Below are positions 19,002 through 26,784 of a DNA stretch of 39,938 nucleotides, in pieces; positions within the stretch are counted from its first letter, which is position 1, and each line of letters starts with the position of its first letter. The notes under the pieces were generated by a model that ran no database searches, was not told the DNA's origin, and saw only the letters and a list, made by a program, of their open reading frames with translations. The position numbers and the translations under genes are program-made. This DNA comes from an uncultured Pelagibacteraceae bacterium (GTDB lineage: Bacteria > Pseudomonadota > Alphaproteobacteria > Pelagibacterales > Pelagibacteraceae). The stretch is from the NCBI GenBank assembly GCA_902546085.1, contig CACCIO010000008.1, positions 1 through 39,938 on the forward strand, written 5' to 3'.

Positions 19002-19781
19002 TTAAACATTAGCGGTTGCTAACATTTTTTTTATTTCAGCTATAGCTTTTGCTGGATTCAAGCCTTTAGGACATGCATTTGTACAATTTAAAATAGTATG
19101 ACATCTGTATAATTTTAATTCATCAGCAACTTTTTTTAATCTTGCTTTTCGCTCCTCATCTCTACTATCAATAATCCATCTATATGCTTGTAACAAAACT
19201 GCTGGACCTAAATATTTGTCACCATTCCACCAATAACTTGGGCAAGAAGTAGAGCAACAAGCACACATAATACATTCGTAGGCACCATCTAATTTTGCTC
19301 TGTCTTCTTTGGATTGATAAATTTCAGTAGTTTCTTTTGTTGAATTATTTTTTAACCATGGTTCAATTGATTGATACTGTTTGTACAATCCATCCAAATC
19401 ACCAATTAAATCTTTTTTGACTTTTAAATGAGGTAATGGATAAATATCAATATCTCCATCTATTTCAGCATGTGGAGTGGTACAAGCAAGGCCATTTTTA
19501 CCCCCCATATTCATTGCACATGAACCACATACTCCATGAGCACAAGATCTTCTGTATGTTATAGTTGAATCGATTTCATTTTTGATTTTATTTAAAATAT
19601 CTAGTACCTTTGAAGAACAATTATCCATGTCAACTTCATAGGTGTCTATCCTAGGACCTTCATCTGTAGATGGATCCCATCTATAAATATTTACTTTTCT
19701 TAAATTTTTTGATCCAGTTTTGTCTTTGAAGTATTTACCTTTTTTAATTTCAGAATTCTTAGGTAAACTCAATTGAACCAT
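19002..19781 (-). CDS. sdhB: Succinate dehydrogenase iron-sulfur subunit
   Basis: 259 aa. Electron-transfer subunit of complex II with three clusters. The 2Fe-2S cluster ligands are C80, C85, C88 and C100; the ferredoxin-like part has C170, C173, C176, C180 and C227, C233, C237 for the 4Fe-4S and 3Fe-4S clusters. All expected cysteines are present. The quinone-site tryptophan pair ([10 protein letters not shown]) is present too. It overlaps the sdhA stop by one base. Electron transfer to quinone therefore looks intact, which matters for the heme finding in SdhC/SdhD. Confidence 0.98.
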
Positions 19782-21556
19782 TAATATACCCGTTCTTGAG
19801 GTGGAAAATATTGCACTTCATTAGTTAAAGTTGATTGATGGACGGGTCTATAACTTATCTTTGTATTTTTACCATCACACCATGCAAGAGTATGTTGCAT
19901 AAATTTTTCATCATCTCTTTTTGGATAATCTTCTCTTGCGTGAGCTCCTCTACTCTCTTTTCTATGATATGCTGAGTCTACAGTTGCTACCGCTTGTCTG
20001 ATTAAATTATCAAATTCTAAGGTTTCTACTAAATCGGTGTTAAATACTAAAGATTTATCCTTAACAGAAATGGAGTCCATTCCATCGTAAGTTTTGCCTA
20101 TCTCATCAACCCCTTGTTTAAGATTTTTTTCTGTTCTAAATACTGCACATTTAGATTGCATTGTTTTCTGCATCGAGAGTCTTAATTCTGCAGTACTATT
20201 ATCCCCTTGAGCATTTCTAAGTTTATCAAATCTATCCAAACACTTTTGAGTTTCAGTTTCTGGTATTTCTTCATGTGGTGTTCCAGGTTTTACTAGTTCA
20301 GCCGCTCTTTTTGCAGCTGCTCTTCCAAATACTACTAAATCAATTAATGAATTAGAACCAAGTCTGTTTGCTCCATGAACAGAAACACATGCTGCTTCAC
20401 CAATAGCCATTAAACCAGGAACTGTTTTTTCAGAACCATTCATTGTTAGCACTTCTGCTTTATAATTTGTTGGAATACCTCCCATGTTATAGTGAACTGT
20501 AGGAACTACAGGTATAGGATCTTTGGTAACATCAACATTTGCAAACAATCTTGCAGCTTCAGTGATACCTGGTAATCGATTTTCAATTACACTTTTGTCT
20601 AAATGACTTAAATGTAAATGAACATGATCTTGATCTTTACCTACACCTCTTCCTTCATTAATTTCTATAGACATTGATCGACTGACAACATCTCTTGACG
20701 CTAAATCTTTTGCATTTGGCGCGTATCTTTCCATAAATCTCTCACCTTCTGAATTTACTAAATAGCCACCTTCACCTCTTACTCCTTCTGATATAAGTGT
20801 TCCGTGTCCATAAATACCTGTTGGATGAAATTGTACAAATTCCATATCTTGCAAAGGTAGTCCTGCTCTTAAGACCATGGCATTACCATCACCTGTACAA
20901 GTATGAGCTGATGTAGCAGAGTAGTATACCTTTCCATATCCTCCAGTTGCAATAATTACAGTGTGCGCTCTAAATCTATGAATTGTACCGTCATTAAGAT
21001 TCCATGCTATTAATCCTTTGCACTCTCCATCTTTCATTAATAAATCTAAAGCAAAATATTCAATAAAAAATTCTGTGTTATGTTTTAAAGCTTGTCCATA
21101 TAAAGTATGTAATATTGCATGCCCTGTTCTATCTGCAGCTGCACAAGTTCTTTGAACAATTCCATTTCCATAATTTTTGGTCATACCACCAAATGGTCTT
21201 TGATAAATTTTCCCCTCCTCTGTACGACTAAAAGGAACACCATACTTTTCCAATTCCAAGACTGCTTTGGGCGCTTCTTTACATAAATATTCAATGCTAT
21301 CTTGATCTCCTAACCAGTCTGCACCTTTTACAGTGTCATACATATGCCATCTCCAATCATCTTCCCCCATATTTCCTAGGGCTGCTGATATTCCACCTTG
21401 TGCAGCAGACGTATGACTTCTTGTGGGAAATACTTTTGAGATACACGCTGTTTTTAAACCAGCTTCACTTAATCCCACAGCTGCTCTTAATCCTGAGCCA
21501 CCTGCTCCAAGTACAACAACATCGTACTCATGATCTATGATATTATAGGCTTTCAT
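19781..21556 (-). CDS. sdhA: Succinate dehydrogenase flavoprotein subunit
   Basis: 591 aa. Oxidises succinate to fumarate using covalently bound FAD. FAD-binding [18 protein letters not shown] is at the N-terminus, the covalent FAD-linking histidine is H48 in [15 protein letters not shown], and the active-site region [20 protein letters not shown] followed by RGEGGYLVN and [10 protein letters not shown] is intact. It overlaps sdhD by 4 bases and sdhB by one, so translation is likely coupled across the operon. Confidence 0.99.
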
Positions 21557-21882
21557 GTATTTAAGTTAAAAATAACAATTATTGTTAAAATTGGAATTGT
21601 TATAGCAAAAAAATTTAAGATTTTGTTTGCGGCATTTTTGATTTTCGTATCTTTTATATAGTCCTCAAAAACCTCACTAATACTTAATGCTGAAAAAAAA
21701 TAAATAAATACCAGAAACAGTCCCATTAAAAATTTAGATGGTTGAGATGTCAAAAAACCAACTATTTCTTGATAACTTTTATCATAAAAATTTACTAAAC
21801 TTAAAATAAACCAAAGCATTAGAGGTAACAAAATTAAAGAGCTAAATTTTAAAAACAACCATTTTTTTGTAACCGGTAGCAT
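21553..21882 (-). CDS. sdhD: Succinate dehydrogenase membrane anchor SdhD, without histidine
   Basis: 109 aa with three hydrophobic segments (about 10-30, 50-70 and 88-107), the SdhD topology. The conserved Asp-Tyr pair of the quinone site is D74-Y75 (EVFEDYIKD), corresponding to E. coli D82-Y83. Eleven residues before that Asp, where E. coli SdhD has the axial heme ligand H71, this protein has F63. The whole 109-residue chain contains no histidine and no cysteine. Identity rests on position (between sdhC and sdhA), topology and the DY motif. See findings for the implied loss of heme b. Confidence 0.9.
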
Positions 21883-22262
21883 TAGATGACTCCTCTTCCA
21901 AATATATAAACTAATATAGTTAAAAAAATTGAACCGAAAATAACAAGCAAACCTGTAATTTTAGTTGTTTGTAATTCAAAGCCATAACCTAAATCCATAA
22001 TTAAATGTCTAATCTCACTTAACATTTGAAAACTAAAAGACCAAGTTATTCCAATTAATATAAATTTCCCTGAAAAAGATTCTAAAAAAATTTTTATTGT
22101 TTGATATTCACTCTCTCCTAAAAGCATAAAAGCAAACCAAATACAAATTAAAGTTATTGCAAAAAAATTAATTATCCCTGTAATTCTATGTGAAATGGAT
22201 ACTAAAGAAGAAATATGCCATTTATAAATTTGTATATGTGGTGATAAAGGTCTATTTTCCAT
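21882..22262 (-). CDS. sdhC: Succinate dehydrogenase cytochrome b556 subunit SdhC, axial His replaced by Gln
   Basis: 126 aa with three hydrophobic segments. The N-terminal RPLSPHIQIY and SISHRITGIINF motifs are the SdhC signature; S22, H25 and R26 correspond to E. coli quinone-site S27, H30 and R31. RHLIMDLGY (85-93) matches the conserved block after the heme ligand. With a constant offset of 5 from E. coli, the axial heme ligand H84 falls on Q79 here (FSFQMLSEIRH). First gene of sdhCDAB, 4 bases after asd. The fold and quinone site look normal but heme coordination does not. Confidence 0.93.
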   Translation of the reverse strand: MENRPLSPHIQIYKWHISSLVSISHRITGIINFFAITLICIWFAFMLLGESEYQTIKIFLESFSGKFILIGITWSFSFQMLSEIRHLIMDLGYGFELQTTKITGLLVIFGSIFLTILVYIFGRGVI

Positions 22263-23277: not shown

Positions 23278-24387
23278 CTAAATAAAAGGTAAATCGCAAA
23301 CTTTACCCACACAAATTTCACCATTTATCTTGGCTTTTATATCCTGATCAACGTTCCAGTGTGGTTTTTTCATCATAGCAATACCAATAACTTTTTTAAA
23401 ATGTGGTGAATAGCAAGCTGATCTCAATTCTCCAATTATATTATTGTTTTGATCACTTAATTCTAATGATCCTGTAATACTTATTTTATCTATATCAAGC
23501 ATTACTCCCATTAATTTTTTTTTAATTCCTTCAGATTTAATTTTTTTTAATTTCTCTTTACCTAAAAAATTAACTTCGCTATCTATGTTAATATATTTAT
23601 CAAATCCACATTCATAAGGATTGTCTCCATTATCGATATCATTTCCATACGATAATAATCCACTTTCAATACGTTCTATTAAATTTGGACAACCTGGTTT
23701 GATATTAAATTCTTTTCCAATTTCAAAAAGATGATCATATAATTTTAATCCAGAAACATTATGCTCAACATAAATTTCATAACCACCTTGTTTTGACCAA
23801 CCAGATCTTGCAATTAAATGTTTATCACCACCAAATTCAAAATAATCAAAACCAAAAAATTTTAAATTAACTATCTTATCTCCAAAAACTTTTTCCATTA
23901 ATTCAAATGACTTTGGACCTTGTATAGCCATTATATCAACATCAGGTTCAAAAATGTTTACGTCTAATTTATTTCCAATGGCTAACCCCTTTGCAAATAA
24001 TATTACATCTGAGTCAGCAAGAGAAACCCACCATTTATTTTCATTTAATCTAAGTACAACTGGATCATTAATCAGACCTGCGTTATCATCAATTATTGGA
24101 CAATAATAACATCTTCCATCTTTCGATTTAGATAAATCTCTACAAGTCATCAACTGAACTAATTTCGCTGAGTCTTTACCAGAAATTTCTACCTGTCTTT
24201 CAGCAGCTACATCCCAAATTTGTACATACTGTTTTAAGTGATGGTATGAGTCCTCAATTGAACCAAACGCTGCGGGAAGCAACATGTGATTATATATTGT
24301 ATAAGCCGTAACTCCTTGTTTTTCTATTCTAGAGGTATAGGGAGTGCCTCTCAGCCTTCTTGATTTTGCAATTGAAAAACTTTTCAT
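23278..24387 (-). CDS. dmdA: DMSP demethylase DmdA
   Basis: 369 aa, the length of the characterised Pelagibacter enzyme. Member of the GcvT/aminomethyltransferase fold that moves a methyl group from dimethylsulfoniopropionate to tetrahydrofolate, giving methylmercaptopropionate. Conserved family blocks are [32 protein letters not shown], and [14 protein letters not shown]108 (GLINDPVV) lines up with the catalytic-site Asp region of GcvT. W197 and Y206 are at positions I recall as substrate-binding in the Pelagibacter structure. Unlike true GcvT, it sits in a cluster with acyl-CoA ligase and dehydrogenase genes rather than gcvH/gcvP. The start overlaps the upstream hydrolase stop (TAATG). Confidence 0.94.
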
Positions 24388-25167: not shown

Positions 25168-26784
25168 CTAAACTTGTTTTCTCAGTTCAAATTTTTGTAT
25201 TTTACCTGTTGACGTTTTTGGTAACTCACAAAAAACAACCTTTTTTGGAACTTTAAAGCCTGCTAAAGTTTCTTTACAAAAATCAATTAATTCTTTCTCG
25301 CTAACTGGTTTGTCTTTAACTGCCTCGATAAATGCACACGGCACCTCACCCCATTTTTCGTCTGGTTTTGCAACAACCGCAGCAATCGAAACGGATGGGT
25401 GTTTGGATAAAGTATTTTCAATTTCAATTGAAGAAATATTTTCTCCTCCAGAAATAATTATATCTTTTGATCTATCTTGTATTTTAATATAGCCATCAGA
25501 GTGCATTACAGCTAAATCACCACTGTGAAACCAACCATCTTTCATGGCTTTTTCGGTAGCCTCTTTATCTTTGAAATATCCCTTCATAACGACATTTCCT
25601 CTAATCATGATTTCACCAATTGTCTTTCCGTCTCTAGGAACTTCTTTCATTGTCTCAGGGTCTAAAACAACTACACCTTCCGTATTAGGGTACTTTACAC
25701 CTTGTCTTGCTTTAATCTCGTTTTGTTTTTCTTCGTCGAAATTATTCCACTCATCATTCCAGGCACACTGAGTTACATGCCCATAAGTTTCCGTTAAACC
25801 ATATACATGCATCACTTCAAATCCCAGAGCTCTCATTTTTTTAAAAATTATACTTGGTGGAGGAGCACCAGCAGTTAAAACATAAACTTTTTGTTTTAAT
25901 TTTTTCTTATCGCTTTCTGGGGCTCCAGTAATCATATTCAATACTATTGGAGCACCACCAAAATGAGTAATTTCATATTTATCAATGAGTTCAAAAATTT
26001 TTTTAATGTCTATATTTCTTAAACAAATTGTTCTTCCATTTAGCATCGGTACGGTCCATGGATAACACCAACCATTGCAATGGAACATTGGTACAACTGT
26101 TAAAAAATTTAGCCTATTTGGCATATTCCAAGCAACTGAGCTTCCCGTAGACATTAAATATGCTCCCCTATGATGATAGACAACACCTTTAGGATTTCCT
26201 GTAGTACCTGATGTATAACTTAATGATATAGCTTGCCACTCATCCTCGGGCATTTGCCATTGGTAATTTTCATCACCTGTATTTAAAAAACTTTCATATT
26301 CTAAATCACCAATTTTTTCCAATTTTGATTGGTCAGCATATTTATCGTTTATGTCAATAATAGTTATTTTTTTATTAAGATTTTTTAATGCTTTTTTTAC
26401 TTCTCCATGAAGTTGTCTATCTACAACTAAGACTTTTGCTTCGCTATGATCTAAAATATAGGAAATTGTTTTGGCATCTAATCTTATATTTATCGTATTA
26501 AGAACTGCACCAGTCATAGGTACAGAATAGTGTGCTTCAAAAATCTCTGGAGTATTGAAAGCTAAGAATGAAACCGTGTCACCTTTTTTAATACCTATTT
26601 TTGTCAATGCACTAGCAAATTTTACAACTCTTTTATAAACTTCAGCCCAGGTATAATTTTTTTCTTCATAAATTATAGCCTCATAATTTGGGTAAATTTC
26701 TTTTGCTCTTTTTAAAAAAGTTAAGGGAGTGAGGGGTACGTGATTTGCTTTATTTTTATCTAAATTTGTATCGTAATGGCTCAT
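25168..26784 (-). CDS. dmdB: Acyl-CoA ligase, probable methylmercaptopropionate-CoA ligase DmdB
   Basis: 538 aa acyl-adenylate-forming enzyme. The AMP-binding P-loop SLSYTSGTTGNPKGVVYHH, VYGLTETYG, GWFHSGDLAVMHSDGYIKI and the C-terminal catalytic lysine K528 (KTSTGKIQK) are intact. The sequence alone fits a short- or medium-chain acyl-CoA ligase. DmdB is chosen because the gene overlaps the dmdC-like dehydrogenase by one base and is followed by dmdA. DmdB adds CoA to methylmercaptopropionate. The equivalent Pelagibacter gene was, as far as I recall, shown to have this activity. Confidence 0.86.
   Translation of the reverse strand: MSHYDTNLDKNKANHVPLTPLTFLKRAKEIYPNYEAIIYEEKNYTWAEVYKRVVKFASALTKIGIKKGDTVSFLAFNTPEIFEAHYSVPMTGAVLNTINIRLDAKTISYILDHSEAKVLVVDRQLHGEVKKALKNLNKKITIIDINDKYADQSKLEKIGDLEYESFLNTGDENYQWQMPEDEWQAISLSYTSGTTGNPKGVVYHHRGAYLMSTGSSVAWNMPNRLNFLTVVPMFHCNGWCYPWTVPMLNGRTICLRNIDIKKIFELIDKYEITHFGGAPIVLNMITGAPESDKKKLKQKVYVLTAGAPPPSIIFKKMRALGFEVMHVYGLTETYGHVTQCAWNDEWNNFDEEKQNEIKARQGVKYPNTEGVVVLDPETMKEVPRDGKTIGEIMIRGNVVMKGYFKDKEATEKAMKDGWFHSGDLAVMHSDGYIKIQDRSKDIIISGGENISSIEIENTLSKHPSVSIAAVVAKPDEKWGEVPCAFIEAVKDKPVSEKELIDFCKETLAGFKVPKKVVFCELPKTSTGKIQKFELRKQV

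Follow-up and report, generated by a model that had tools for sequence, protein, structure and literature searches.

The window, the whole stretch of 39,938 nucleotides analysed here, belongs to a 1.06-Mb draft genome of 48 contigs that is 80% complete. It carries the genes for complex II (succinate dehydrogenase) as an operon on the minus strand in the order sdhC, sdhD, sdhA, sdhB, which is also the order of the E. coli sdhCDAB operon. The large membrane anchor SdhC (126 amino acids; 21882-22262, minus strand) matched TIGR02970 with 128 bits at a cut-off of 52.3, and the small membrane anchor SdhD (109 amino acids; 21553-21882, minus strand), whose gene overlaps sdhC by one base (TAATG), matched TIGR02968 with 52.9 bits (cut-off 41.8). 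The flavoprotein gene sdhA (19781-21556, minus strand) was identified by TIGR01816 (964 bits, cut-off 727), and the iron-sulfur protein gene sdhB (19002-19781, minus strand) by its cluster cysteine motifs, which align with those of solved complex II SdhB chains. The genome belongs to SAR11: SdhC of the window is up to 90% identical to its closest named relatives, which are Pelagibacteraceae. A DMSP demethylase gene (23278-24387, minus strand; NF009133, 579 bits, cut-off 410) adjoins asd and sdhCDAB; its upstream neighbours are a gene for an alpha/beta-hydrolase-like protein and one for an acyl-CoA synthetase (25168-26784).

As is typical of class C, the operon encodes two homologous three-helix anchors of the SdhC and SdhD families. 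Besides the TIGR matches, the AlphaFold2 model of SdhC (pLDDT 88.6) matched 7jz2_C (Z 15.4) and that of SdhD (pLDDT 91.4) matched 2wdq_D (Z 13.4, 105 residues aligned). At an E-value of 0.001 both anchors matched Sdh_cyt (PF01127) only in Pfam, and their best NCBIfam names, both above cut-off, were SdhC and SdhD rather than the FrdC and FrdD of class D. The anchor of E. coli fumarate reductase was a poorer structural match (Z 9.3-9.4) than the Sdh anchors (Z 13.4-15.4). The source genome, 80% complete, yielded no further Sdh_cyt pair.

For comparison, SdhC and SdhD were taken from 260 loci in 248 genomes, which amount to 235 distinct SdhC and SdhD pairs; six pairs are common to two records and may represent one genome counted twice. 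Codes such as f1 or g1 are arbitrary labels for families and genera, and "f1-type" denotes the 134 SAR11 genomes outside family f2, window included, that miss at least one axial heme ligand. According to the earlier note, the window keeps the quinone-site residues of both anchors and all SdhB cysteines, and the alignments bore this out. SdhC Ser22 to Arg26 (22185-22199, minus strand) correspond to E. coli S27 and R31, and SdhD Asp74-Tyr75 (21658-21663, minus strand) to D82-Y83, residues that we take to form the quinone site. All four, and with them the quinone site expected of class C, are present in 134/134 f1-type genomes, and SdhC His25 (E. coli H30), between Ser22 and Arg26, in 132/134. 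The window thus shares fold, quinone residues and iron-sulfur motifs with E. coli SdhCDAB (1nek, 2wdq). Furthermore, sdhC and sdhD are under purifying selection, with a median pairwise dN/dS of 0.23 for SdhC (2928 pairs) and 0.28 for SdhD (4468 pairs) among pairs with dS of 0.2-1.2.

Residues at the axial heme ligand positions

In class C, one b heme is ligated by one histidine from each anchor. E. coli SdhCDAB binds heme b with H84/G88 in SdhC and H71/G75 in SdhD, whereas the window has Gln/Glu and Phe/Ser at these positions. A phmmer alignment matched SdhC Gln79 (CAA; 22026-22028, minus strand) to E. coli H84 (1nek_C) and to the axial histidine of avian SdhC, and kept the IRH(L/M)xxD block in register. 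Structurally, SdhC aligned over 118 residues with gaps, and end ranges only were given, so that its register rests on sequence motifs and profiles. For SdhD, a single-sequence search returned no match to E. coli SdhD or to any solved complex II chain. A profile of 66 SdhD relatives aligned with 1nek_D without a gap over 100 positions (3-102 with 11-110), and the AlphaFold2 model aligned with 2wdq_D over 105 residues (3-107 with 11-115). The constant offset of 8 places Phe63 (TTT; 21694-21696, minus strand) at E. coli H71. SdhD contains no histidine and SdhC contains four. The three statements of the earlier note, that Gln79 replaces H84, that Phe63 replaces H71 and that SdhD is free of histidine, were all upheld.

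Each axial histidine of E. coli is followed at +4 by a glycine (HxxxG), namely G88 in SdhC and G75 in SdhD. The window has Glu83 (GAG; 22014-22016, minus strand) at the former and Ser67 (AGT; 21682-21684, minus strand) at the latter. At SdhD R20, described as a distal-propionate residue in E. coli (PMC3290573), it has Lys12 (AAA; 21847-21849, minus strand), and f1-type genomes have Lys in 132 and Arg in 2 of 134 cases. As Lys also occurs at this position in 7 of the 93 genomes with both axial histidines, it is not diagnostic. SdhD Met22 (21817-21819, minus strand), found in 131/134 f1-type genomes and in none of the 11 both-histidine SAR11 compared, may either fill the cavity or act as a ligand.

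Two SdhC histidines were considered and set aside. His86 as an iron ligand was rejected, since it falls on E. coli H91, a residue that bonds a propionate, and since the position is Phe, Tyr or Leu in 32 of 67 phylum loci with both axial histidines. His16, present in 119/134 f1-type genomes, is nearly specific to the f1 clade but already occurs in L166, a SAR11 locus that keeps both axial histidines; in the model its place is close to where the first helix begins.

Distribution of ligand loss

As the earlier note had proposed, positions 79 and 63 were compared across SAR11 and other alphaproteobacteria. Within the window's genus, both axial histidines are missing in 61 of 63 genomes and one is missing in two; close relatives with both histidines, which would point to a local error, number 0/63. 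Both histidines are gone from 117 of the 134 f1-type genomes and one from the other 17, of which 15 keep the SdhC and 2 the SdhD histidine, and the SdhC 79 column reads Gln in 119 and His in 15. Among the 64 named SAR11 loci, many of which are presumably single-cell genomes judging by their isolate names, 53 lack both histidines, 9 lack one and 2 (L166 and L174) have both. In genus g8, 3/8 genomes lack both and 5/8 lack one, the single g9 genome lacks one, and genera g5, g6 and g7 have both in 8/8.

The sister family f2 displayed another pattern. Its genus g2 combines SdhC Tyr with SdhD His in 15/15 genomes, as does g4 (1/1), while g3 has both histidines in 2/2. Several g2 loci (L034, L046, L060 and others) read YxxxC in SdhC with HxxxG intact in SdhD. 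The heme status of f2 is less certain because the SdhC glycine has become Cys or Ser but the SdhD glycine is kept; g2 would have either a heme with Tyr as ligand or, as in yeast, a Tyr-His pair and no heme.

Outside SAR11, alphaproteobacteria have both histidines in 16/16 named and 65/70 further genomes. The latter, with SAR11 not counted, came from 129 class genomes with a match and comprise the 30 best-scoring plus 40 selected because they scored low or were small, and for this reason the five exceptions in 70 are not a frequency. These five (G298, G317, G341, G363 and G370; loci L237, L243, L249, L254 and L256) are scattered on the tree. Four of them, G298, G317, G341 and G363, carry Glu at the HxxxG position of SdhD (75), and G341 also on the SdhC side. 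In a phylum sample of 68 loci newly taken from 87 genomes with a match, one locus having its SdhC positions masked and one genome (G340) being shared with the 248-genome set, histidine and glycine are kept in both subunits in 67/67 readable loci. In 29 of these 67 loci (L272, L295 to L303 and others) the position of E. coli SdhC H91 is Phe.

An error in sequencing, assembly or binning, or decay of the anchor genes, has a negligible probability. The 80% complete, 48-contig state of the window's genome could invite such an explanation, but the f1-type states recur in 134 genomes from two collections, with identical SdhC and SdhD in G128 and L112, and both histidines are also missing from G012, G086 and G087, each of which is a single contig. 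The frames are open, dN/dS is 0.23-0.28 and the quinone-site residues are fixed. A local error, a pseudogene and a second, heme-bearing copy were ruled out by the relatives, by dN/dS and by the Sdh_cyt search of the 80% complete draft.

The glycines of the heme pocket

The pocket glycines are lost along with the histidines. SdhC 88 (E. coli numbering) is Gly in all 93 genomes with both histidines and SdhD 75 in 92 of them, so that both glycines are kept in 92/93, the exception being L166 with Ser in SdhD. Conversely, at least one pocket glycine has been lost in all 155 genomes of the 248-genome set that miss an axial histidine. Every f1-type genome has replaced both. SdhD 75 is Ser in 89, Thr in 44 and Asn in 1 of the 134, and SdhC 88 is Glu in 134/134, encoded by GAA in 87 and GAG in 47. 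This was the sole column found in 134/134 f1-type genomes and in 0/11 both-histidine SAR11 (L166 left out). That the residue is fixed while its codon varies suggests that selection holds Glu at SdhC 88.

Independent pairs were compared on a FastTree phylogeny of SdhA, with SdhB added where present, covering 242 of the 248 genomes (six were left out for short SdhA). Histidine and glycine loss went together in six of seven pairs, were opposed in none and showed no difference in one, which gives a sign test p of 0.031 that rests on six informative pairs.

Order of loss inside SAR11

On this tree the f1 clade comprises 132 rows with support of 100, and its sister group, consisting of g5 to g7 and L174 (9 rows, support 94), has canonical ligands. 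Inside the f1 clade, L166 retains both histidines with the SdhD glycine changed to Ser; g8, g9 and G037 combine His/Glu in SdhC with Phe/Thr in SdhD; and other genomes have Gln/Glu in SdhC with Phe or Tyr in SdhD. Within the clade, the SdhC state changed at least five times and the SdhD histidine at least twice. On these counts the SdhD histidine was probably lost first and the SdhC histidine afterwards several times, being replaced by Gln more than once. The first step is less sure, because L166 sits at an open fork of the tree. Two genomes (G042 and L170) have the SdhD histidine together with SdhC Gln, which is perhaps a reversion. The joint loss in both partners described in the earlier note thus held in that both ligands are gone, but it was probably stepwise, passing through HG/HS and HE/F before QE/F or Y.

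Comparison with heme-free complexes

Complex II of Saccharomyces cerevisiae is reported as solved without heme (PMC13066397; PDB 9qdl and 9qdm by title). As described there, Sdh3 His156 bonds Sdh4 Tyr108, Sdh4 Glu112 replaces a glycine and bonds Sdh3 Arg97 in the propionate's stead, and a phospholipid is buried deeper, partly replacing heme contacts. Glu112 stands four residues after Tyr108, that is, at the HxxxG position. The yeast enzyme and the window share the class C fold, the quinone site, axial histidine loss and a Gly to Glu change in HxxxG, yeast being heme-free by structure and the window enzyme by prediction from sequence. In the window the yeast-type pattern takes the form of SdhC Gln79/Glu83 and SdhD Phe63/Ser67. 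The two differ in that yeast has lost the histidine in Sdh4 only, to Tyr, and has its Glu in Sdh4 opposite Sdh3 Arg97, whereas the window's lineage has lost both histidines and has its Glu in SdhC, presumably opposite SdhD Lys12, on the other pseudo-two-fold side. SdhC 88 and SdhD 75 are equated by the pseudo-two-fold because each precedes, by three residues, one member of the H91-Q78 pair. Family f2, with SdhC Tyr and SdhD His, mirrors the yeast Tyr-His pair.

The class D fumarate reductase of E. coli, FrdABCD, is described as having no heme between its membrane anchors and an unassigned cofactor where the heme would be (PMC10238741). The mitochondrial complex II of Tetrahymena and Perkinsus is likewise reported without heme (PMC13066397); these are divergent eukaryotic complexes within supercomplexes, likened to the window by description. 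In the open-access literature searched, we found no report of a heme-free class C complex II in SAR11 or other bacteria.

Discussion

Taken together, these findings make it likely, with a probability of roughly 0.8, that the operon encodes a succinate:ubiquinone oxidoreductase that is class C by descent and no longer binds heme b. The window enzyme would depart from class C by its heme alone, as the yeast enzyme does, and would at most belong to a heme-less subdivision, for which the yeast study is reported to call (PMC13066397). The claim of the earlier note that complex II is heme-free but quinone-active thus gained strong support from sequence, through the glycine co-loss in 155/155 genomes and the counterpart changes in yeast; the absence of heme itself stays a prediction.

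In the proposed mechanism, electrons would pass from FAD through the three iron-sulfur clusters and reach ubiquinone at the site formed by the conserved S27, R31, D82 and Y83, and the enzyme would retain activity. The empty heme pocket would be repaired by side chains: Gln and Phe or Tyr take the place of the axial histidines, and larger residues that of the two HxxxG glycines, which presumably pack against the porphyrin. The carboxylate of SdhC Glu83 probably stands in for a heme propionate by bridging SdhD Lys12 and SdhC His86, and the Glu83-Lys12 pair would be the pseudo-two-fold mirror of yeast Sdh4 Glu112-Sdh3 Arg97.

The heme of E. coli complex II is described as lying off the direct electron path, with a potential that does not set turnover, and a heme-free variant is reported to keep significant activity and to permit growth on succinate, although at lower rates and with the heme stabilising the isolated enzyme (PMC3290573). 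For the 17 of 134 f1-type genomes with one axial histidine, heme ligation by that residue is possible. Single-ligand mutants of E. coli Sdh can reportedly retain heme.

Conceivably, heme b is still bound, five- or six-coordinate, through SdhC His25, SdhD Met22, SdhC Cys40 or, in some species, Tyr63. We consider this improbable. His25 (132/134), Met22 (131/134) and the Cys at SdhC 45 in E. coli numbering (115/134) are widespread, and crystal structures of the E. coli axial-ligand mutants H84M and H71M were among our structural matches. In addition, Arg26 and His86 are kept (His86 in 134/134), and their E. coli counterparts, R31 and H91, are reported to hold the heme propionates (PMC3290573). 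However, no f1-type genome has kept either pocket glycine, a charged Glu having taken the place of one of them, and the equivalent Gly to Glu change in yeast accompanies the reported absence of heme (PMC13066397). The candidate ligands also vary, with 2, 3 and 19 exceptions for His25, Met22 and Cys40, respectively.

In a variant of the heme-free reading, the cavity is filled by a different ligand, for instance a phospholipid tail or a quinone, that stabilises the helices. The phospholipid in yeast (PMC13066397) and the unassigned cofactor of E. coli fumarate reductase (PMC10238741) lend it some plausibility, but the larger residues at the glycine sites leave less room and the sequence indicates no specific ligand, so that it appears rather unlikely.

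As to why the heme of complex II would have been lost, selection to save iron in a low-iron ocean, as the earlier note suggested, and neutral replacement are two candidate causes. The clusters of complex II are described as holding 2+4+3 irons (PMC3290573) and the heme holds one, so the loss would save one of ten irons, plus the porphyrin. That a streamlined genome replaced a dispensable cofactor neutrally, and not under selection for iron saving, we judge to be an even proposition. Consistent with it are the saving of one iron in ten, the reported position of the E. coli heme off the direct path with no bearing of its potential on turnover (PMC3290573), and the ligand loss in the five alphaproteobacterial exceptions outside SAR11, whose genomes measure 1.2-2.0 Mb, from a sample that favoured small genomes and low scores. 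Against it, Glu88 is fixed despite synonymous turnover, which argues that the replacement state is under selection now, and the canonical SAR11 set includes L174, titled as a 200 m depth cast and possibly from a lake.

The source genome encodes ferrochelatase and a heme-copper oxidase (COX1), and heme is therefore presumably made and used elsewhere in the cell. A further idea, that heme made from glycine is costly in a glycine-poor cell, was rejected as framed, since the source genome has no match to the C4-pathway ALA synthase model TIGR01821. Across 31 genomes of the order (the source and 30 relatives) none exceeded the cut-off of this model, with three weak matches below it; ALA is presumably made by another route in these genomes.

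SAR11 are among the most abundant marine bacteria. We incline, if only slightly, to the wider proposal that in most marine SAR11 the complex II of the Krebs cycle would be free of heme, and that its loss would have followed a repeatable route: a pocket glycine changed first, one histidine went next as a carboxylate took over the propionate salt bridge, and the second histidine went last. Lineages would have used either pseudo-symmetric side (SdhC Glu88 or SdhD Glu75), as in yeast, and the heme would be a structural strut replaceable by one glutamate. If heme is indeed absent, the SAR11 remodelling of complex II mirrors the route of baker's yeast to a heme-free enzyme.

The role of the complex II heme is a long-standing question, to which SAR11 contribute a natural gradation: some living relatives have both histidines, some one and some neither, and the compensating residue is fixed. 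With this gradation, whether the heme acts as a strut or in redox chemistry becomes testable by point mutation. The family model named "cytochrome b556 subunit" still matches the ligand-less protein above cut-off, and HxxxG in both anchors may serve as a simple sequence rule that predicts the heme content of class C complex II. If the heme-free reading is true, ocean estimates of the cofactor, iron and heme cost of a core respiratory enzyme would need revision.
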